Shown here in pieces: positions 22,127 through 41,091 of a DNA stretch of 64,000 bases; within the stretch, counting starts at the first letter, position 1; each line of letters begins with the position of its first letter. The translations under genes and the position numbers were made by a program. This stretch comes from Rubrobacter calidifluminis (lineage in GTDB: Bacteria; Actinomycetota; Rubrobacteria; Rubrobacterales; Rubrobacteraceae), in contig NZ_JAQKGV010000005.1 of assembly GCF_028617075.1 (NCBI RefSeq), forward strand, positions 1 through 64,000, given 5' to 3'. The notes under the pieces are model-generated. The model was not told the origin of the DNA, did not search any database, and saw nothing but the letters and a program-made list of their open reading frames with translations.

Positions 22127-22130
22127 GGCG

Positions 22131-22195
22131 TTTGTGCCCCGCTCCCCGCCGGTGTAATCTGCTTCAATACGGTGGAGGGCCGCCAGGTCCTCCAC
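22131..22195 (+). promoter_or_regulatory. possible promoter and leader hairpin of the carrier-protein cassette
   Basis: TTTGTG (22131-22136), 18 bases, then TAATCT (22155-22160). A 7-bp stem GTGGAGG/CCTCCAC with a 10-base loop (22172-22195) lies in the resulting leader, before the acyl carrier protein. It suggests the cassette has its own transcript, separate from leu. Confidence 0.45.
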
Positions 22196-22227
22196 GGGCA
22201 CGAGCCGAAGCAGGAGGTAGGTTCATC

Positions 22228-22491
22228 TTGGCACAGGAGAAGCAGAGGCCGGATCGGGCCTGGATCGAGAAGAAGGTCCGCGAGGTGGTGGGGGTGAACC
22301 TGCAGGTCGCGGCCGACGAGGTCAAAGACGAGGACAACTTCGTCTACGACCTCGGGGCGGACTCGCTCGACCTCACCGAGCTCGCGGCCGCGCTCGAGGA
22401 GGAGTTCGGGATCGAGATCCCCGAGTCGGAGTTCAACCGGGTGATGACGGTCTCGCGGGTCGCGGACTACGTAGAGTCCCAGCTCCAGTAA
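22228..22491 (+). CDS. acyl carrier protein
   Basis: An 87-residue carrier protein. The phosphopantetheine attachment serine is in DLGADSLDLTELAAALEEE (about residue 47), followed by the typical FGIEIPESEF helix II-III segment. TTG at 22228 follows AGGAGGTAGG. It stands alone, away from fatty-acid synthase genes, and directly precedes an acyl-AMP ligase (23 bases), so it probably carries the intermediate made by this cassette rather than serving general fatty-acid synthesis. That role is inference. Confidence 0.92.
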   Translation: MAQEKQRPDRAWIEKKVREVVGVNLQVAADEVKDEDNFVYDLGADSLDLTELAAALEEEFGIEIPESEFNRVMTVSRVADYVESQLQ

Positions 22492-22514
22492 GGACGCAAG
22501 GGGGTGGTTTGCAG

Positions 22515-24164
22515 ATGGTAGAGCGCTTCCCCGGGATGGTCCTGACCGAGGAGAGGATCCGGGAGTACCAGAAAGCCGGGTACTGGACGGAGGAGACCTT
22601 CGCCGAGAAGATGGAGCGCAACGCGCGCGAGTACCCCGATCTCGTCCACCGCGACGAGTGGCGCACCCTCACCTACCGGGAGCTGTGGGAGGAGGCCGGG
22701 GCGGTCGCGGCGAAGCTGCTCGAGCTCGGGGTGCGAAAAGGCGACCGGGTCGCGCTGCAGCTGCCGACGAGCCTCGACTACGTCGTCGCGCTCTACGGGG
22801 CCGTCAGGATCGGGGCGGTCGGGGTGCAGCTGCAGGTGGACCTAAGCCGGGATGCCGTCGCCCAGAGCATCGAGAAGGCCGGGGCGAGGGTGCTCGTCGT
22901 CACCGAGAACTACCGCGGGGAGCCGACGGCCGAGAACGCCCGGGCGATCCGCGACGCCAGCCCCACGCTCGAACACGTCATCGTGCAGGGCGGAGAGGAC
23001 TACCCGAAGGACGTCCTCTCCTTCGAGGAGGTACGCCGCTCCGGCGAGCGGCCGCCGGAGGACGTCGAGCGGGCCAACCGGCCGGAGGCGCTCGACCCGT
23101 TCGTAATGGTCTTCACCTCCGGGACGACCGGCTCGCCGAAGGAGACGCTGCACCTGCACGCCAACTACATCTACGGCGACCGCTCCTACGAGAAGCTCTA
23201 CGGGCACAAAGCCGGTGAGGCGACGCTGTGTCTCGCCCCGATAAGCCACCAGACCGGGATGCTCGTCGGGGTGAACCTCCCGGTCTACACCGGGGGCAGG
23301 ATGCTCCTGATGGAGCACTTCGCAGCCTCGCGGGTGATGCGCTGGATGGAGGAGGAGAAGCCGACCTATCTCGTCGGGGCGCCGCCGCACGTCATCCACG
23401 TCGCCAACGCCCCGCGCCTCAAGGAGATAGACACCACGAACGCACGGCTGTTCATCTACGCCGGCGGGCCGGTGCCGAGCCCCATCCTGCGGCGTCTGCA
23501 GGAGGACTCCGGGATCACGGTGAGCTGCATGTTCGGCTGGACCGAAGGGCTCGGGATGTCCGTCACCCTCCCCGACGACCCGATAGAGGCGATAAGCAAG
23601 ACCGTCGGGCGGCCGCTGCCGGGGATGGAGGTGCGGCTGGTGGACGACGACGGCAACGAGGTGCCCGTCGGAGAGCCGGGCGAGATGCTCTGCCGCGGCC
23701 CCTCCTTCTGCGCCGGCTACTACAACAACCCGAAGGCCGCCGCCGAGCGGTGGGATTCGGAGGGCTGGTTCCACTCCGGGGATCTTTTGCGCAAGGACGA
23801 GGAGGGCCGCTACACCTTCATGGGCCGCGCGGACGACATCATCAACCGCGGCGGGACCAAGATAGACCCCAAGCAGATAGAGGACGTCCTCGGCGAGCAC
23901 GAGGCCATAGACCAGGCCGTCGTCGTCGGCGCGCCGGACCCCACGCTCGGGCAGCGCACGGTGGCGTGCGTGATCCTGAACGAGGGCGCGGAGGAGTTCT
24001 CGCTCGAGGAACTGCACGAGTTCCTGAGGGAACGGGGCCTAGCGCGCTTCCAGCTCCCCGACGGGCTCGTCTTCATGGAGGAGTTCCCCATGACCCACTC
24101 CGGCAAGACCAAACGCAAGGACCTCAGGCAGATGCCGCTCGTGGTGGAGGCGGGCAGCCGTTGA
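22515..24164 (+). CDS. acyl/aryl-AMP ligase (EntE-like adenylating enzyme)
   Basis: A 549-residue ANL-superfamily enzyme that activates a carboxylic acid as acyl-AMP and transfers it to a thiol. Motifs are the P-loop VFTSGTTGSPKETLHLH (about residue 200), FGWTEGLGMS, RPLPGMEVRLVDDDG, GWFHSGDLLRKDEEGRY and the late catalytic Lys in THSGKTKRKDL. The N terminus (ERFPG through YQKAGYWTEET) resembles 2,3-dihydroxybenzoate-AMP ligases, which favour cyclic acids. ATG at 22515 has a purine-rich site before it; TTG at 22509 is possible. The adjacent ACP is the obvious acceptor. The substrate is unknown. Confidence 0.88.
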   Translation: MVERFPGMVLTEERIREYQKAGYWTEETFAEKMERNAREYPDLVHRDEWRTLTYRELWEEAGAVAAKLLELGVRKGDRVALQLPTSLDYVVALYGAVRIGAVGVQLQVDLSRDAVAQSIEKAGARVLVVTENYRGEPTAENARAIRDASPTLEHVIVQGGEDYPKDVLSFEEVRRSGERPPEDVERANRPEALDPFVMVFTSGTTGSPKETLHLHANYIYGDRSYEKLYGHKAGEATLCLAPISHQTGMLVGVNLPVYTGGRMLLMEHFAASRVMRWMEEEKPTYLVGAPPHVIHVANAPRLKEIDTTNARLFIYAGGPVPSPILRRLQEDSGITVSCMFGWTEGLGMSVTLPDDPIEAISKTVGRPLPGMEVRLVDDDGNEVPVGEPGEMLCRGPSFCAGYYNNPKAAAERWDSEGWFHSGDLLRKDEEGRYTFMGRADDIINRGGTKIDPKQIEDVLGEHEAIDQAVVVGAPDPTLGQRTVACVILNEGAEEFSLEELHEFLRERGLARFQLPDGLVFMEEFPMTHSGKTKRKDLRQMPLVVEAGSR

Positions 24165-25339
24165 GCCAGGCGGCCACCGAAGACCTCGCCCGGCGGGCCG
24201 GGGAGCTGCGCGAGCGGGCCAGGGCCTTCCGGCTCGGGGAGGCCGAGGCGTGGGGCGAGGAGATAGAGCGCACCGGTGAGATCCCCGACGGGCTGTGGGA
24301 GAGGCTCAGGGAGCTTGGCTTCTTCAGCCTCACCCAGCCGCGGTGGGCCGGCGGGGAGGGGCTTCCGCTCTCGCTCTACTTCCCCATCCTGGAGGAGATC
24401 TCACGCTGCCACGGCGCGATCCGGATGGCCTGCCACGCGTTCAACAGCATCTGGCGCACGGTGGGCCAGGGCCGCGAGGAGCAGCGGCGAAAGTGGCTCC
24501 CGCAGATAGCCCGCGGCGAGAAGCTCGTCGCCTTCGCGCTCACCGAACCCGACGCCGGGACCGGGATAGACCTGAAGACGACCGCCACATACGAGAACGG
24601 CCGCTACGTCCTGCGGGGCAAAAAGCACCTCATCACCTTCGCCCGGCGTGCGAGCGTCTTCGCCGTCGTCGCGAAGACCGACGCCGAGGTCGGCAGGGCG
24701 GGTCTCACCGCCTTCCTCGTCCCCAGGGACCAGCCGGGGATGCGCATCGAGGAGATGCCCGAGATGATGGGCGACCACGGCTGCGACCACGCCGTGATCA
24801 CCTTCGAAGAGTGCGCCGTTCCGGAGGAGGCCGTCCTCGGCGAGGTCGGCGGCGGCTTCGAGGTCGCTGTCAGGGGCTTTCTGGACCAGAGCCGGGCGTG
24901 CATCGCCCAGAGCGCGGTCGGGCTCGCGCAGGAGGCGCTCGACCGGGCGGTCTCATACGCCCGCCGGCGCAGGACCTTCGGCAAGGCGATAGCGAGCCGG
25001 CAGGCGATCCAGATGCGCCTGGCGGAGATGGACGTCGCGGTCGCCGCCGGACGCCTCCTGTGCCTGGAGGCCGCCAGGAAGTTCGACGCGGGGGAGGAGA
25101 TAGCCCGGGAGGCCGCGCGGGCGAAGGCCTACGCGATAGAGATGGTCGGCAGGGTGACCGACGGCGCGCTCATGACCTTCGGCGGCGTGGGCTACCTCTC
25201 CGGCAGCCCGGTGGAGCGCCTCTACCGCGACGCCCGCTCGCTGTGGTTCGAGGAGGGGACGGCGGAGATGCAGAAGATGACGATCGCGGAGCGGCTCCTC
25301 GCCGAGGCGCGCCGCCGCGAGCGCGAAGAGAGCCGGTGA
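24161..25339 (+). CDS. acyl-CoA (or acyl-ACP) dehydrogenase
   Basis: A 392-residue flavoprotein dehydrogenase. FAD/substrate motifs are FALTEPDAGTGIDLKTTA (about residues 127-145) and ARRRRTFGKAIASRQAIQ, and the catalytic Glu is expected in FEEGTAEMQKMTIAERLL near the C terminus. The start is TTG at 24161, overlapping the ligase stop by TTGA. In the cyclohexanecarboxyl-CoA cassettes of Streptomyces a related dehydrogenase sits next to the ligase; that comparison rests on gene set, not on alignment. Confidence 0.9.
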   Translation: MSQAATEDLARRAGELRERARAFRLGEAEAWGEEIERTGEIPDGLWERLRELGFFSLTQPRWAGGEGLPLSLYFPILEEISRCHGAIRMACHAFNSIWRTVGQGREEQRRKWLPQIARGEKLVAFALTEPDAGTGIDLKTTATYENGRYVLRGKKHLITFARRASVFAVVAKTDAEVGRAGLTAFLVPRDQPGMRIEEMPEMMGDHGCDHAVITFEECAVPEEAVLGEVGGGFEVAVRGFLDQSRACIAQSAVGLAQEALDRAVSYARRRRTFGKAIASRQAIQMRLAEMDVAVAAGRLLCLEAARKFDAGEEIAREAARAKAYAIEMVGRVTDGALMTFGGVGYLSGSPVERLYRDARSLWFEEGTAEMQKMTIAERLLAEARRREREESR

Positions 25340-26358
25340 GGGCGGCCCTCTTCGACCCCGAGGGAGGATTCCGGCTCGGGGAGGTACCCGAACCCGAACC
25401 GGACGAGGGGGAAATCGTCGTCGAGGTCGCCGGCTGCGGGGTCTGCGGGTCGGACCGTCAGATCGCCGCCGGGGCGACGGCTCCTGCCGGGACCGTCTTC
25501 CCCGCGGTCTTCGGGCACGAGATCTCGGGATACGTCGACGGCAGGCCGGTCGCGGTCTTCCCGATCGTACCGTGCGGCTCCTGCCGGCTGTGCTCGTCCG
25601 GCCAGGAGAGCCTGTGCCTGGCGCAGCAGGTCATAGGCTACCACCGCCCTGGGGGCTACGCCGAGCGGGTCGCGGTGCCGGAGGACCGGGTGATCCCGCT
25701 GCCGCAGGACGTCCCGCTCCTCGTCGCCGGGCTCCTCATGGACGCGGTGGCGACCCCGTTTCACGCCCTGCGCTCGGTCGTGCACCTCGAGGCGGGCGAG
25801 AGCGTCGCCGTCGTCGGGGGCGGCGGGCTCGGGCTCGGTGCGCTCCTGGGCGCCCGGGCGATGGGGGCCGGGGCCACGGCCCTCGTCACCCGCAGGGAAC
25901 CGGATGGGGTCCTGCGCGGGCTCGCGGAACGCCTCGGGGCGCAGGAGCTGTGGAGCACCGCGGAGGGGACGGAGCGCTCTCTCGTACGCGAGGTCCGGCG
26001 GTGGTCCGGCGGCGGGGTGGACGTCGTCCTGGATACGGCCGGGAGCGTGCGGAGCGTCGGGCTCGCGATGGGGCTCCTGCGGCCGGGCGGGAGGCTCTGC
26101 GTCGTCGGGATGGAGGACGAGGGAGGAGGCCCCCTCCCCCCCATCTCGCACTGGGTGAGGCGGGGGATCGTGGTCGCCGGAAGCTACGCCGCGACCGTCG
26201 AGGACGCGAGGACGCTGGTCGGGTGGGCGGGCTCGGGGCGGATAGAGCCCGCCCTGCTGGAGGCGATGGTCGCGGAGGTGCGCCCGCTCGCGGAGATAGA
26301 GGAGGTCTTTCGCCAGCCGGGGCGCACGGGGCGCGTCGTGATCAGGCCGGAGGTGTAG
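25336..26358 (+). CDS. zinc-dependent alcohol dehydrogenase family protein
   Basis: A 340-residue medium-chain dehydrogenase. The catalytic zinc site is seen as CGVCGSD (about residues 35-41) and GHEISGYV. The structural zinc cluster is CGSCRLCSSGQESLC and the cofactor loop is VVGGGGLGLGALLGARA. It probably oxidises a ring or chain hydroxyl of the intermediate bound by the cassette. GTG at 25336 overlaps the dehydrogenase stop (GTGA). Confidence 0.88.
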   Translation: MRAALFDPEGGFRLGEVPEPEPDEGEIVVEVAGCGVCGSDRQIAAGATAPAGTVFPAVFGHEISGYVDGRPVAVFPIVPCGSCRLCSSGQESLCLAQQVIGYHRPGGYAERVAVPEDRVIPLPQDVPLLVAGLLMDAVATPFHALRSVVHLEAGESVAVVGGGGLGLGALLGARAMGAGATALVTRREPDGVLRGLAERLGAQELWSTAEGTERSLVREVRRWSGGGVDVVLDTAGSVRSVGLAMGLLRPGGRLCVVGMEDEGGGPLPPISHWVRRGIVVAGSYAATVEDARTLVGWAGSGRIEPALLEAMVAEVRPLAEIEEVFRQPGRTGRVVIRPEV

Positions 26359-26359
26359 A

Positions 26360-27118
26360 GTGGAGCGCTACGCTGGGAAGGTCGTCCTGGTTACGGGAAG
26401 CTCGCGCGGGATCGGGAGCCGGCTCGCCGTCCGGTTCGCCGGGGAGGGCGCGGACGTCGTCGTTCACTACTTCAGGAGCGCGAAGGAGGCCCGCGGGGTC
26501 GCCGCGGAGGTCGAGAGACTCGGTCGCAGGGCGCTGCTCGTGCGGGCGAACCTCTCCAGGGAAGAACAGATAGAGCATCTCTTCGAGCAGGTCGGGGAAG
26601 GTTTCGGCCGGCTCGACGTCTTCGTCCACAACGCCGCCTCCGGGCGCAACCGGCCCGTGAGCGAGATAGACGCCAAAGGCTTCGACTGGACGATGAACGT
26701 CAACACCCGGGCGCTCCTGCTCGGGGCCCAGCACGCCTCGAGGCTCATGCCCGAAGAGGGCGGGGCGATCCTGGCGCTCTCCTCCTTCGGCTCGGAGCGG
26801 GTCTTCCCGAACTACGGGAGCGTCGGGCCGAGCAAGGCGGCCGTGGAGTCGCTCGTGCGCTACCTCGCGGTCGAGCTCGCGGAGCGCAACATCAACGCGA
26901 ACGCCATCTCCGCCGGGGCGATAGCCACCGACGCCCACAAGCACTTCCCCGGTATAGAGGAGCAATGGGCCGAGATAGAGCGCCGGCTCCCCTACCACCG
27001 GATGCTCACCGCGGACGACGTGGCGAACCTGGCGCTCTTCCTCTGCTCGAAGGAGGCCGAGATGATCCGGGGCCAGACCATCCGCATCGACGGCGGCCTC
27101 ACCCTTCCGATACCCTGA
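26360..27118 (+). CDS. FabL/ChcA-like SDR enoyl reductase
   Basis: A 252-residue short-chain dehydrogenase. Cofactor motif VTGSSRGIGSRLA is at about residues 11-23, followed by HNAASG. The catalytic segment is LSSFGSERVFPNYGSVGPSK rather than the ordinary YxxSK. The pattern SSxGS...Y..VG.SKAA, AGAIATDAHKHFP and MIRGQTIRIDGG is that of Bacillus FabL (enoyl-ACP reductase III) and of Streptomyces ChcA (1-cyclohexenylcarbonyl-CoA reductase). It would therefore reduce an enoyl intermediate. GTG at 26360 follows GGAGGTGTAGA. It is the last gene of the cassette. Confidence 0.87.
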   Translation: MERYAGKVVLVTGSSRGIGSRLAVRFAGEGADVVVHYFRSAKEARGVAAEVERLGRRALLVRANLSREEQIEHLFEQVGEGFGRLDVFVHNAASGRNRPVSEIDAKGFDWTMNVNTRALLLGAQHASRLMPEEGGAILALSSFGSERVFPNYGSVGPSKAAVESLVRYLAVELAERNINANAISAGAIATDAHKHFPGIEEQWAEIERRLPYHRMLTADDVANLALFLCSKEAEMIRGQTIRIDGGLTLPIP

Positions 27119-35140: not shown

Positions 35141-36058
35141 TCAGGAGCCCTTCCCGGCCTTCTTCGCCGCCTTCATCCAGGGGTCGACGACGCGGCGGTT
35201 GTCCTCGAGCCACGCTCTGACGCCCTTCGCCGGCGTGTTCCGGCCGTGCTTGCGGATGGAGAGCTCCAGCTTGCCTAGCTGTTCGGAAGAGAGCTTTATC
35301 GCGTCGAGCAACGCGTAGGCTTCTGGCTGGTCTTTATTCAGCCCCTTGCGGACTATCGTGTAGATGTGGTCCGGCTTCCCGAAAGCGTCCTTCGGGTCTT
35401 CCAGGTACCTTATCGGGAAGTCGGTGAAGGCCCAGTGCGGCTTCCAGAGGGTCACGACGATGGGCTTTTTGGCCGCTATGGCCTTCTTGAGCGCCGAGAG
35501 CATCGCGGGGGTACTCGAGGCCACGAGCCTGTAGTTCAGGCCGTAGGCGGGGATGACCCTGTTCTGCACGATGGACATCTCCCCCGCCCCGGACTCTATG
35601 CCGGTGATCCTGCCACCGAACCGGCTCCTGTATCTGTTCAGGTCGGCGATGCTCTTGGCCTCGACGTAATCCGGGACGGCGAGGCCGAGCGTGCCGGCCC
35701 CCTCGTACCAGGATTGGAGCCGGGTCACCTCATCGCCGAACTTCTTCCAGTAGCTGGCGTGGGTCTTCGGCAGCCACACATCCTGGAAGGTATCGAGGTC
35801 TCCGCCCGCGACCCCCTGAAACAGCGCCCCGGCTTCGAGCGTCTTCAGCGTCACCTCACCGTAGTTCAGGTGCTCCTGCAGCAGGATTCTGGTCAGGTTC
35901 GCGACCGCAACATCCTCGTCCCAGCCGATGTTGCCCACCTTGAGGGTCTTGCCGGCTCCACCGGAGGCCGCCCCGCAGCCCCCGAGGAGAACCGCCCCGG
36001 CTCCGGCCGTCCCGAGCCCGAGGAACTCCCGGCGGCTGAAGCTCTTCTCACCCACCAT
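35141..36058 (-). CDS. glycine betaine/choline-binding lipoprotein (OpuAC/ProX-like), copy 1
   Basis: A 305-residue substrate-binding protein. The N terminus SFSRREFLGLGTAG followed by VLLGGCG is a twin-arginine signal ending in a lipobox cysteine (about residue 28), so it is folded before export and anchored outside. The mature part has KVGNIGWDEDVAVANLT, FQDVWLPKTHASYW, a Trp-rich pocket (ITLWKPHW-type segment VVTLWKPHWAF) and EDNRRVVDPWMKAA, as in betaine binders with aromatic cages. It is separated from the rest of the transporter operon by a strong terminator. Confidence 0.9.
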   Translation of the reverse strand: MVGEKSFSRREFLGLGTAGAGAVLLGGCGAASGGAGKTLKVGNIGWDEDVAVANLTRILLQEHLNYGEVTLKTLEAGALFQGVAGGDLDTFQDVWLPKTHASYWKKFGDEVTRLQSWYEGAGTLGLAVPDYVEAKSIADLNRYRSRFGGRITGIESGAGEMSIVQNRVIPAYGLNYRLVASSTPAMLSALKKAIAAKKPIVVTLWKPHWAFTDFPIRYLEDPKDAFGKPDHIYTIVRKGLNKDQPEAYALLDAIKLSSEQLGKLELSIRKHGRNTPAKGVRAWLEDNRRVVDPWMKAAKKAGKGS

Positions 36059-36143: not shown

Positions 36144-37142
36144 TCAGGACTGCCTGGAAGCCTTCCTTGCAGCCCTTATCCAGGGCTCGACGACATTGCG
36201 GTTACCCTCGAGCCAGTTGTTCACGCCCTTTACCGGGTTGTCCTCTCCGGCCTTGTTTATCTCCAGTTCGAGAGAGTTGACCTGATCCTCGGTGAGCTTT
36301 ATGGCCTTGAGGAAGGCGTAGGTCACGGGGTCGTCGTTCTTCAGGTTCTCACTGACGACCGTCTGCAGCTTCGAGGAGTTGCTGAAGGGCTTCTCCAGCC
36401 CTTTGGGATCCTTGAGGTACCAGAGGTCGTACTTCTTGTTCATCCAGTGCGGCGACCAGGCCGGGATCACGATCGGCTGCTTCGCGCTGTACTTCTTCTG
36501 CAGCTCGGCGAGCATCGCCGCGGTGCTCGAGGTGACGAGTTTCATGTGCAGGTTGTAGCCGGGGATCACCTTGTTCCGGATCACCGGCATGAAAGAGGCG
36601 CTCGGCTCGATACCGGTGATCACGTTCGTCCCCGCCCTGTTGAGGTCCGCGATGCTCACTATACCCTTCTTCTTCATGTACATGGGCACCGCGAGCCCGT
36701 ACTTGGTCTGCCCCTCGAACCAGGGCGGCAGAAGCTCGACCTTGGGCTTGACCTTGGCGCTGTTGAGATAGCTCTTGTTGTTCGGCATCCAGACGTCCTG
36801 GAACGCCGTCAGCTCCTCACCGGCCACACCGAGGAACAGCGGCCCCAACTCGAGCGGCCCCTTGATGTCCACACCACCGTAGCCGAGGTCCTTCTCCATC
36901 ACGACCTTGGAAAGGTTCGAGACCGCCACGTCCTCCGTCCAGCCTATACTACCGAAGGTGATCTTCTTGTCCTTGTTCGAACCCGACACCTGCCCCGCTC
37001 CGGCAGAACTCGACGCCTCCCCAGACGAACCCGCCCCACCGCAGCCACCAAGCAGGACGACCCCGACCCCCGCCGCACCAAGACCGAGCACCTCTCTGCG
37101 GCTCAACAGCCTATCCGAAAGCTTCCGGGTCACGCAGAACAC
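36144..37142 (-). CDS. glycine betaine/choline-binding lipoprotein (OpuAC/ProX-like), copy 2
   Basis: A 332-residue paralogue of the preceding binding protein. The signal SRREVLGLGAAGVG plus VVLLGGCG is again Tat-type with a lipobox. Binding motifs are FGSIGWTEDVAVSNLS, FQDVWMPNNKSYL, PAWSPHWMNKKYDLWYLK and EGNRNVVEPWIRAARK. Lys/Ser/Gly-rich linker follows the lipid Cys. It is the third gene of the minus-strand transporter unit (ATPase, permease, binding protein), 141 bases after the permease. Confidence 0.9.
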   Translation of the reverse strand: MFCVTRKLSDRLLSRREVLGLGAAGVGVVLLGGCGGAGSSGEASSSAGAGQVSGSNKDKKITFGSIGWTEDVAVSNLSKVVMEKDLGYGGVDIKGPLELGPLFLGVAGEELTAFQDVWMPNNKSYLNSAKVKPKVELLPPWFEGQTKYGLAVPMYMKKKGIVSIADLNRAGTNVITGIEPSASFMPVIRNKVIPGYNLHMKLVTSSTAAMLAELQKKYSAKQPIVIPAWSPHWMNKKYDLWYLKDPKGLEKPFSNSSKLQTVVSENLKNDDPVTYAFLKAIKLTEDQVNSLELEINKAGEDNPVKGVNNWLEGNRNVVEPWIRAARKASRQS

Positions 37143-37283: not shown

Positions 37284-38171
37284 TCAGGCGAGTCCGCCCT
37301 TGCCGCCGGGCTTCTGCCGCCCCCTCCCGATGTTCCGGGTGATGCGGTCGAGGATGATCGCTATTATCACGATTCCGAGCCCGCCCTCGAAGCTGGTGCC
37401 CACATCGAGCGTGCTCAGGCCCTTGTAGACCACGGTCCCGAGGCCCCCGGCCCCGATCAGGGCGGCTATCACGACCATCGAGAGCGCGAGCATGATCACC
37501 TGGTTGACCCCGGCCATGATCGTGGTGAACGCCTGTGGCAGCTCCACCTTCACCAGCGTCTGCCAGCGGGTCGAACCGAAAGCCTTCGCGGCCTCTATCG
37601 TCTCTTTCGGAACCTGCTGCAGCCCAAGCAGCGTGAGCCTCACCGCCGGCGGCATCGCGAAGATCACGACCGAGAGCAGCCCCGGCGCGTTGCCGAGACC
37701 GAGCAGGATGATCGCGGGCACCAGATAAACGAAGGCCGGCAGCGTCTGCATGAAGTCCAGGATCGGCCTGACTATGGTCTCAACGGTCCTGTACTGCGCC
37801 GAGAGTATCCCGACCGGGATGCCTATGAGCAGCGCCACGGCCGTCGACGCGATCACCAGCGCGAGCGTCGTCATCGCATCGTCCCAGAGGTTCATCCCGA
37901 GGATGAGCCCGAAACCAATGAGCGTCAGCAGCATCACCCGCCACCCGCCGAGCCACAGCGCGATGGCCATGAAGATGAGGACCATCGCCCAGGGCGGAAG
38001 GATGTTCAGGACGAAGTCGAAGGCGCCGACCAGCCCCCCGAGAATGGTGGAGAGCCCGTCGAAGAACCCGCTGAAGTTGTCGGTTATGTAGTTGACGAAG
38101 TCCGAGACCCAGCCGCCTATCGGGATGCGTGGCACGTAGTTGTGCACCCCCTGCTGCAGTAAGGCGATCAT
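37284..38171 (-). CDS. glycine betaine ABC transporter permease (OpuAB-like)
   Basis: A 295-residue permease with about six membrane helices. The N-terminal IPIGGWVSDFVNYITDNF is typical of OpuAB/ProW. The EAA loop that docks the ATPase is KETIEAAKAFGSTRWQTLVK, followed by VELPQAFTTIMAGVNQ. Its ATG shares one base with the ATPase stop (TGATG). Together with the neighbouring genes it forms an osmoprotectant importer. Confidence 0.93.
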   Translation of the reverse strand: MIALLQQGVHNYVPRIPIGGWVSDFVNYITDNFSGFFDGLSTILGGLVGAFDFVLNILPPWAMVLIFMAIALWLGGWRVMLLTLIGFGLILGMNLWDDAMTTLALVIASTAVALLIGIPVGILSAQYRTVETIVRPILDFMQTLPAFVYLVPAIILLGLGNAPGLLSVVIFAMPPAVRLTLLGLQQVPKETIEAAKAFGSTRWQTLVKVELPQAFTTIMAGVNQVIMLALSMVVIAALIGAGGLGTVVYKGLSTLDVGTSFEGGLGIVIIAIILDRITRNIGRGRQKPGGKGGLA

Positions 38172-40320: not shown

Positions 40321-41091
40321 ATGATCAGGGCAGTCTGTGTTCGGGGGGTGCGGATCGGGGAGGGGTCCCCAAAGGTCATCGTACCGCTCACCGACGGGAG
40401 CCCGGAGCGGCTTAAAGAACGGGCCGGTGCGCTTGGTGAACACCACGCGGACATCGTCGAGTGGCGGGTGGATTTCTTCGAAGGGCTCGGGGACCCCTCG
40501 CGGGTCGTCGCCACGGCCCGGGAGATCTCCGCGCTCGCGGGAGGGAGACCGCTGCTCTTCACCTGCCGGACGGAGGAAGAGGGTGGGGAGGCCGGGATCC
40601 CGGAGGAAGAGTACGTCCGTCTCAACGCCCGGATCATCGAGGCCGGTGCGGCGGACATGGTGGATCTCGAGTACCGGTTCGGTCCGGATGCCCTGGGGGT
40701 TTTGATCGGGTCGGCCCATTCGCGGGGAATACCGGTCGTGGTCTCCAGCCACGACTTCTCCGGGACGCCGGAGAAAGACGAGATCGTCTCCAGGCTGCGC
40801 CGGATGCAGGGTCTGGGGGCGGACGTCTGCAAGGTCGCCGTCATGCCGCGCTCCGCCCGAGACGTGCTCGTGCTGCTCGACGCCACGCTGACGATGCACG
40901 AGCGCTACGCCGACCGCCCCCTGATCACGATGGCGATGGGACGTCTCGGGCTGGCATCGAGGTTCTTCGGCGGCGTCTTCGGTTCTGCGGCCACCTTCGG
41001 CACTGCCGGTGCGGCCTCCGCGCCAGGTCAGCCAGACGCGGAGGAACTGCGCAGGATGCTCCGGCTGATACACCAGGGAGATCAGCCCTAA
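40321..41091 (+). CDS. aroD: 3-dehydroquinate dehydratase, type I
   Basis: A 256-residue class I dehydroquinase of the shikimate pathway. It has EWRVDFFEGL (about residues 43-52), the catalytic His in VVSSHDFSGTP, the Schiff-base Lys in VCKVAVMPRS and the late MGRLGLASRFFGGVFGSAATFGTA with the active-site Arg. The start ATG at 40321 follows GGAGATGAG; the frame is open further upstream through the tRNA, which is not coding. Type I enzymes are the less common kind in actinobacteria. It converges with birA, sharing 4 bases. Confidence 0.94.
   Translation: MIRAVCVRGVRIGEGSPKVIVPLTDGSPERLKERAGALGEHHADIVEWRVDFFEGLGDPSRVVATAREISALAGGRPLLFTCRTEEEGGEAGIPEEEYVRLNARIIEAGAADMVDLEYRFGPDALGVLIGSAHSRGIPVVVSSHDFSGTPEKDEIVSRLRRMQGLGADVCKVAVMPRSARDVLVLLDATLTMHERYADRPLITMAMGRLGLASRFFGGVFGSAATFGTAGAASAPGQPDAEELRRMLRLIHQGDQP

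Follow-up and report, generated by a model that had tools for sequence, protein, structure and literature searches.

A conserved five-gene acyl carrier protein cassette in Rubrobacter calidifluminis and its possible part in the synthesis of a cyclohexanecarboxyl starter

Gene content of the cassette

The window analysed here, 64,000 nucleotides in length, comprises bases 1-64000 of contig C5 (NZ_JAQKGV010000005.1) of the 3.09 Mb, 54-contig genome of Rubrobacter calidifluminis (G000), and its subject is a block of five genes on the plus strand at 22228-27118, considered as a candidate module of cyclohexanecarboxyl starter synthesis. A free-standing acyl carrier protein (ACP) of 87 amino acids (22228..22491; 61.9 bits to PF00550 and 81 bits to TIGR00517) is followed by an acyl/aryl-adenosine monophosphate (AMP) ligase of about 550 amino acids (22509..24164, beginning at TTG 22509 or ATG 22515; 270 bits to the AMP-binding profile). 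Next come a flavoprotein of the acyl-coenzyme A (CoA) dehydrogenase fold (24161..25339), assigned by profile match and, as a paralogue of the AnsL-type protein L described below, by tree; a zinc-dependent medium-chain alcohol dehydrogenase (ADH; 25336..26358), assigned by profile match and zinc motifs; and a short-chain dehydrogenase/reductase (SDR) of the FabL/ChcA type carrying the Y-x6-K enoyl-reductase motif (26360..27118). The spacing is operon-like, with 17 nucleotides between ACP and ligase, overlaps of 4 nucleotides on either side of the flavoprotein gene and a single nucleotide between ADH and SDR. All five genes were found at these positions, and the closely spaced set of families named in the original prediction was confirmed.

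Family calls at the superfamily level were clear for all five proteins, and NCBIfam equivalog cut-offs were reached by two of them, the ACP (a general model) and the SDR (FabL, 343 bits against a cut-off of 328). The phosphopantetheine site of the ACP is Ser46 in the motif DLGADSL (codon 22363-22365). This ACP is the second in the genome, the other being encoded in a FabH-FabD-FabZ-FabG-ACP-FabF operon on contig C18, all of whose genes except that for the ACP were identified by eye. The alignment of the flavoprotein spans the EGT catalytic-glutamate motif, and the ADH was aligned to a solved zinc ADH over both the catalytic (C, HE) and the structural (four Cys) zinc motifs. Among solved structures, those nearest to the ligase are salicylate- and 2,3-dihydroxybenzoate-AMP ligases, the enzymes of the EntE/DhbE/PchD siderophore systems, in which a ligase is likewise paired with a small carrier protein; unlike those systems, the window ligase has the pocket motif SHQTG in place of AHN, is accompanied by no non-ribosomal peptide synthetase and is followed by reductive enzymes. 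The closest solved relative of the SDR is FabL of B. subtilis (PDB ID: 3OIC; 244.8 bits), which shares the Y-x6-K motif. The GC content of the cassette, overall and at third codon positions (GC3), equals that of the flanking genes, and composition thus offers no indication that the cassette was recently transferred.

Conservation of the gene order

The five-gene order is kept in three other genomes, namely the congeners G026 and G027, in which the proteins are 97-99% identical and the same leu/ilv flanks are present, and G001, which belongs to a different genus and in which the identities are 69, 80, 83, 66 and 81% for the ACP, ligase, flavoprotein, ADH and SDR, respectively, with unrelated flanks. 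Such recurrence, extending to a second genus with different surroundings, shows that the block is not a chance assembly; in this respect the window SDR differs from a lone housekeeping FabL, as it is one of five genes that stay together in two genomic contexts. The Chloroflexi genome G396 retains the ACP-ligase pair (52% and 72% identity) in a third genomic context, and ligase orthologues are thus 72-99% identical across G026, G027, G001 and G396. The adjacency of ACP and ligase, conserved in all three contexts, suggests that a ring acid may be loaded onto this carrier.

Linkage to leu/ilv, which had been taken as fitting a role in starter synthesis, was discarded as functional evidence, since the cassette genes of G001 and those of the Chloroflexi genome lie elsewhere, which makes the proximity seen in the window incidental.

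On the 3' side of the G001 cassette lies a full-length gene resembling ketoacyl-ACP synthase (KAS) II (L031:13171-14439), convergent on the SDR gene with a 4-nucleotide overlap and followed by PhaC/PhaE-like genes.

A J-K-L-A locus on another contig

Two members of the 5-enolpyruvylshikimate-3-phosphate (EPSP) synthase family, AroA and MurA, are expected in each genome. A search with PF00275 returned two such genes in each of nine relatives lacking the cassette and an additional one, termed J, in G000, G026, G027 and G001 (of the four matches in G001, two are apparently parts of a single gene interrupted by contig ends). In G000, J lies on contig C15 (63932-65248) and is followed by a ligase (K), an acyl-CoA-dehydrogenase-like flavoprotein (L) and a ChcA/FabL-like SDR (A, or ChcA). 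The absence of an EPSP-synthase-like member, noted in the original prediction, therefore holds for the window and not for the genome. At conserved positions J departs from AroA (SKS to SKY, GNAGT to GSCGS/GSSGT, SSQF to LSQW and the C-terminal TKT to RIS), in keeping with a new function. K scores 558 bits against the cyclohexanecarboxylate-CoA ligase model TIGR03208, a value under the equivalog cut-off of that model.

When public genomes were scanned with J, the four genes J, K, L and A were recovered in the same order and at 49-57% identity in Lentzea, Kitasatospora and Streptomyces. Inspection of the sequence by eye identified further neighbours: KAS III-like genes and an ACP precede J-K-L-A in the Lentzea locus L074 and in Kitasatospora, and an old-yellow-enzyme/dienoyl-reductase-like flavin gene, termed M, follows it in Lentzea and Streptomyces. 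These J-K-L-A(-M) loci (L074-L079) are taken here, from what is known of such clusters rather than from direct sequence comparison, to be the ans/plm/asu cassette. In papers that cite the work of Cropp and colleagues of 2000 (Nature Biotechnology 18:980), a cassette of this type is said to serve cyclohexanecarboxyl-CoA synthesis. The window block had itself been likened to the ans/plm cassette; that identification is not supported, as the cassette of this type lies on contig C15 with its own ligase, flavoprotein, SDR and J.

The window cassette resembles the J-K-L-A(-M) clusters in having a ligase, an acyl-CoA-dehydrogenase-like flavoprotein and a FabL/ChcA-type SDR with Y-x6-K. It differs from them in lacking J and M, in having an ACP as the first gene of the operon and in the addition of the zinc ADH, which has no counterpart in the J-K-L-A locus, and the two coexist as separate loci in the same genome.

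In Lentzea and Kitasatospora, J and K form one continuous frame of 963-994 amino acids, an apparent fusion (L074:10001-12892, L075:9971-12925 and L077:9998-12982). A nickel-pincer-cofactor isomerase family gene (NCBIfam group 22; 522 bits) lies directly upstream of J on contig C15 of G000 (L067:8472-9773); it was considered as a conserved pathway member and rejected, being kept in G026 and absent beside J in G001.

Paralogy of the two enzyme sets

The window ligase, flavoprotein and SDR are 32, 45 and 40% identical to K, L and A of the same genome, within a range of about 30-45% for the ligase and SDR against their counterparts in the J-K-L-A(-M) clusters. The relationship is closest for the flavoprotein: in the genomes with L in hand its nearest homologue, its own orthologue aside, is L (43-46%), other full-length homologues reaching at most 40%, and in a maximum-likelihood tree with outgroups from eight genomes it is sister to the L clade with support of 100/100.

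The Y-x6-K motif is present in the window SDR, ChcA, FabL and FabI, the other sampled SDRs having spacing of the Y-x3-K type, and the Y-x6-K proteins, including the window SDR, form one clade (100/99). Comparison of the SDR with ChcA and FabL, which had been proposed as a check on the starter assignment, gave a divided answer: the best tree places it nearer FabL (86/77), and its grouping with ChcA instead is not rejected (p-AU 0.144).

The window ligase and K have the HQTG acid-pocket motif in common. Because aryl-acid AMP ligases are the best solved relatives of each, these relatives do not by themselves separate ACP from CoA as the acceptor. Plasmid-borne relatives of the window ligase were set aside, as the matches were of about 32% or less and of the ordinary CoA-ligase type.

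Co-occurrence with J and absence of M

A window-type ligase (at least 80% identity) and J (at least 73%) were found in the same four of 39 Rubrobacteraceae genomes; in the other members of the family the J query matched ordinary AroA (29-34%) or nothing. The same four genomes carry both among 396 evenly drawn Actinomycetota, the remaining 392 having neither at the thresholds used. Counted by genera, both are present in two of the 13 in Rubrobacteraceae, for which the probability by chance is about 0.013; counted by genomes this is far smaller, though three of the four are congeners. The Chloroflexi genome G396 was found through J alone and was then seen to carry a window-type ligase and ACP; it is the single genome among 400 Chloroflexota with such a ligase, the next match being 35%.

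J also occurs in Lentzea, Kitasatospora and Streptomyces genomes without a window-type ligase (best match 34%). M-like proteins (47-100% identity) are present in all four genomes tested from these three genera, the Kitasatospora match (47%) not being adjacent to J, and no match to M at E<=1e-30 was obtained in any of the five genomes carrying a window-type ligase (G000, G026, G027, G001 and G396).

A two-locus reading and its alternatives

Alicyclobacillus is the classic maker of omega-cyclohexyl fatty acids and, to our knowledge, a full assignment of the enzymes leading from shikimate to cyclohexanecarboxyl-CoA has never been achieved. A 2023 study by Sinninghe Damste and colleagues is said in its abstract to have found omega-cyclohexyl fatty acids in abundance in both R. 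calidifluminis and R. naiadicus, along with an operon for the cyclohexanecarboxyl-CoA thioester that is almost complete, and reportedly, as far as the abstract goes, describes no module of ACP, ligase, flavoprotein, ADH and SDR. If this abstract holds, the end product and the C15 J-K-L-A locus have most likely been described already: the putative operon of these two species is of the same family and has the same proposed end product as the window cassette, and the C15 locus is most likely what was meant. For Rubrobacter species, as distinct from the present strain, C19 omega-cyclohexyl fatty acids are mentioned in PMC13412118, with reference to doi 10.1016/j.syapm.2023.126404 (Sinninghe Damste et al., 2023). 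In this sense the end product is already on record for the genus, and the ACP-based module appears to be undescribed.

On balance, and by a modest preference, the window cassette is regarded as part of a two-locus pathway to the cyclohexanecarboxyl starter of omega-cyclohexyl fatty acids, in which it forms the second module, based on a carrier protein. The link to such a starter made in the original prediction is thereby retained in altered form, supported by the co-occurrence of the ligase with J-K-L-A, by the position of the flavoprotein as sister to L and by the fatty acids reported from Rubrobacter. From gene content, order, paralogy, co-occurrence with J and absence of M, which are computational observations, we infer a substrate, an order of steps, a use for the ACP and an end product as follows. 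The shared steps, beginning with a shikimate-derived acid, would fall to the C15 locus. The window ligase would then activate a partly reduced ring acid as the adenylate and load it onto its own ACP, on which the second L-like flavoprotein, the zinc ADH and the FabL-like enoyl reductase would complete reduction and dehydration. The ADH is placed at a ring hydroxyl or ketone because both zinc motifs of solved alcohol dehydrogenases align, and the SDR at an enoyl reduction because of its Y-x6-K motif. In this pathway the cassette would replace the M of the Lentzea and Streptomyces clusters, and the distribution is most simply accounted for if J-K-L-A depends on an additional reductase set, which would be M in natural-product actinomycetes and the ACP-based cassette in the present lineages. 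Put more generally, and more tentatively, makers of omega-cyclohexyl lipids that lack M may finish the conversion of shikimate to cyclohexane on a dedicated ACP with a second ligase, an L-type flavoprotein, a zinc ADH and a FabL-like reductase, which would constitute an undescribed branch of the pathway.

If the two-locus reading is true, the division of the task between two loci, with one conserved enzyme replaced by an ACP-based set, would give a version of the pathway that can be tested gene by gene. It would also explain how a Rubrobacter operon reported as almost complete could work, M perhaps being the missing piece and the cassette a candidate for filling the gap, and J together with the ACP-ligase pair would serve as genomic markers for predicting omega-cyclohexyl lipid makers in metagenomes.

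Several observations weigh against the two-locus reading. The cassette and the J-K-L-A locus are unlinked in every genome seen. In G396 the other three cassette genes do not lie beside the ACP-ligase pair, and no window-type flavoprotein was found in that fragmented genome, in which the best full-length match is 38% (the best SDR match there being FabL-like, 45%). Three of the four co-occurring Rubrobacteraceae belong to one genus, leaving about three lineages overall, and the window ligase forms a separate long branch that groups weakly with K (SH-aLRT 72). The missing linkage, the bare ACP-ligase pair of G396 and the small number of independent lineages would equally suit a cassette whose product is some other ACP-bound acyl starter or small molecule and which shares genomes with J-K-L-A through acquisition by the same few lineages. 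This is rather unlikely, given that the flavoprotein is specifically sister to L, that none of the 392 sampled genomes lacking the cassette ligase carries J and that M is missing in exactly the genomes that have this ligase. The one-to-one pairing of ligase, flavoprotein and SDR with K, L and A, and the dedicated ACP adjoining the ligase, could also denote a functional duplicate of K-L-A performing the same ring reductions with ACP in place of CoA, either for reasons of dosage or for direct hand-over of the ring to the fatty acid synthase; the deep divergence of the two sets, both of which are kept wherever five-gene cassettes occur, the zinc ADH unmatched in the other locus and the gap left by M make such duplication improbable.

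The SDR may be the general enoyl-ACP reductase of the cell, which is a further point against the two-locus reading, and taken to its conclusion the SDR would be the housekeeping FabL and the rest of the block incidental. Its score above the FabL equivalog cut-off, the lack of an enoyl reductase among the C18 fab genes (L194:722-5235) and the restriction of Y-x6-K, among the G000 SDRs similar to it, to ChcA and itself all speak for this; its retention with the other four genes at a new location in another genus speaks against, as does the need for an enoyl reductase in relatives without the cassette (the FabK and FabV types were outside the searches), and the block being incidental is judged highly improbable. 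Scarcely any weight is given to catabolism of cyclohexanecarboxylate (ali/bad type) or of another ring acid: ligase, acyl-CoA dehydrogenase and SDR do resemble aliA-aliB-badH, described for cyclohexanecarboxylate degradation (PMC9795900), but there is no badK-type hydratase or badI-type ring hydrolase within the block, the SDR bears the enoyl-reductase Y-x6-K, a carrier protein has no place in the ali/bad pathway and all NCBIfam ali/bad equivalog cut-offs were missed.

Other features of the window

The ACP gene is separated from cimA by a leader (22127..22227, plus strand) that is predicted to fold into a stable stem-loop (z = -2.45), which hints faintly at a possible control element; no such hairpin was evident in the differing leader of G001. 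A type I 3-dehydroquinate dehydratase gene of the shikimate pathway, probably housekeeping, lies 13 kb from the cassette at 40348-41091. A profile scan of two further genes identified a binding protein of the glycine-betaine type (OpuAC, PF04069) at 35141-36058 and a nearby permease at 37284-38171, and the first of these is adjoined by a similar-looking gene at 36144-36989.

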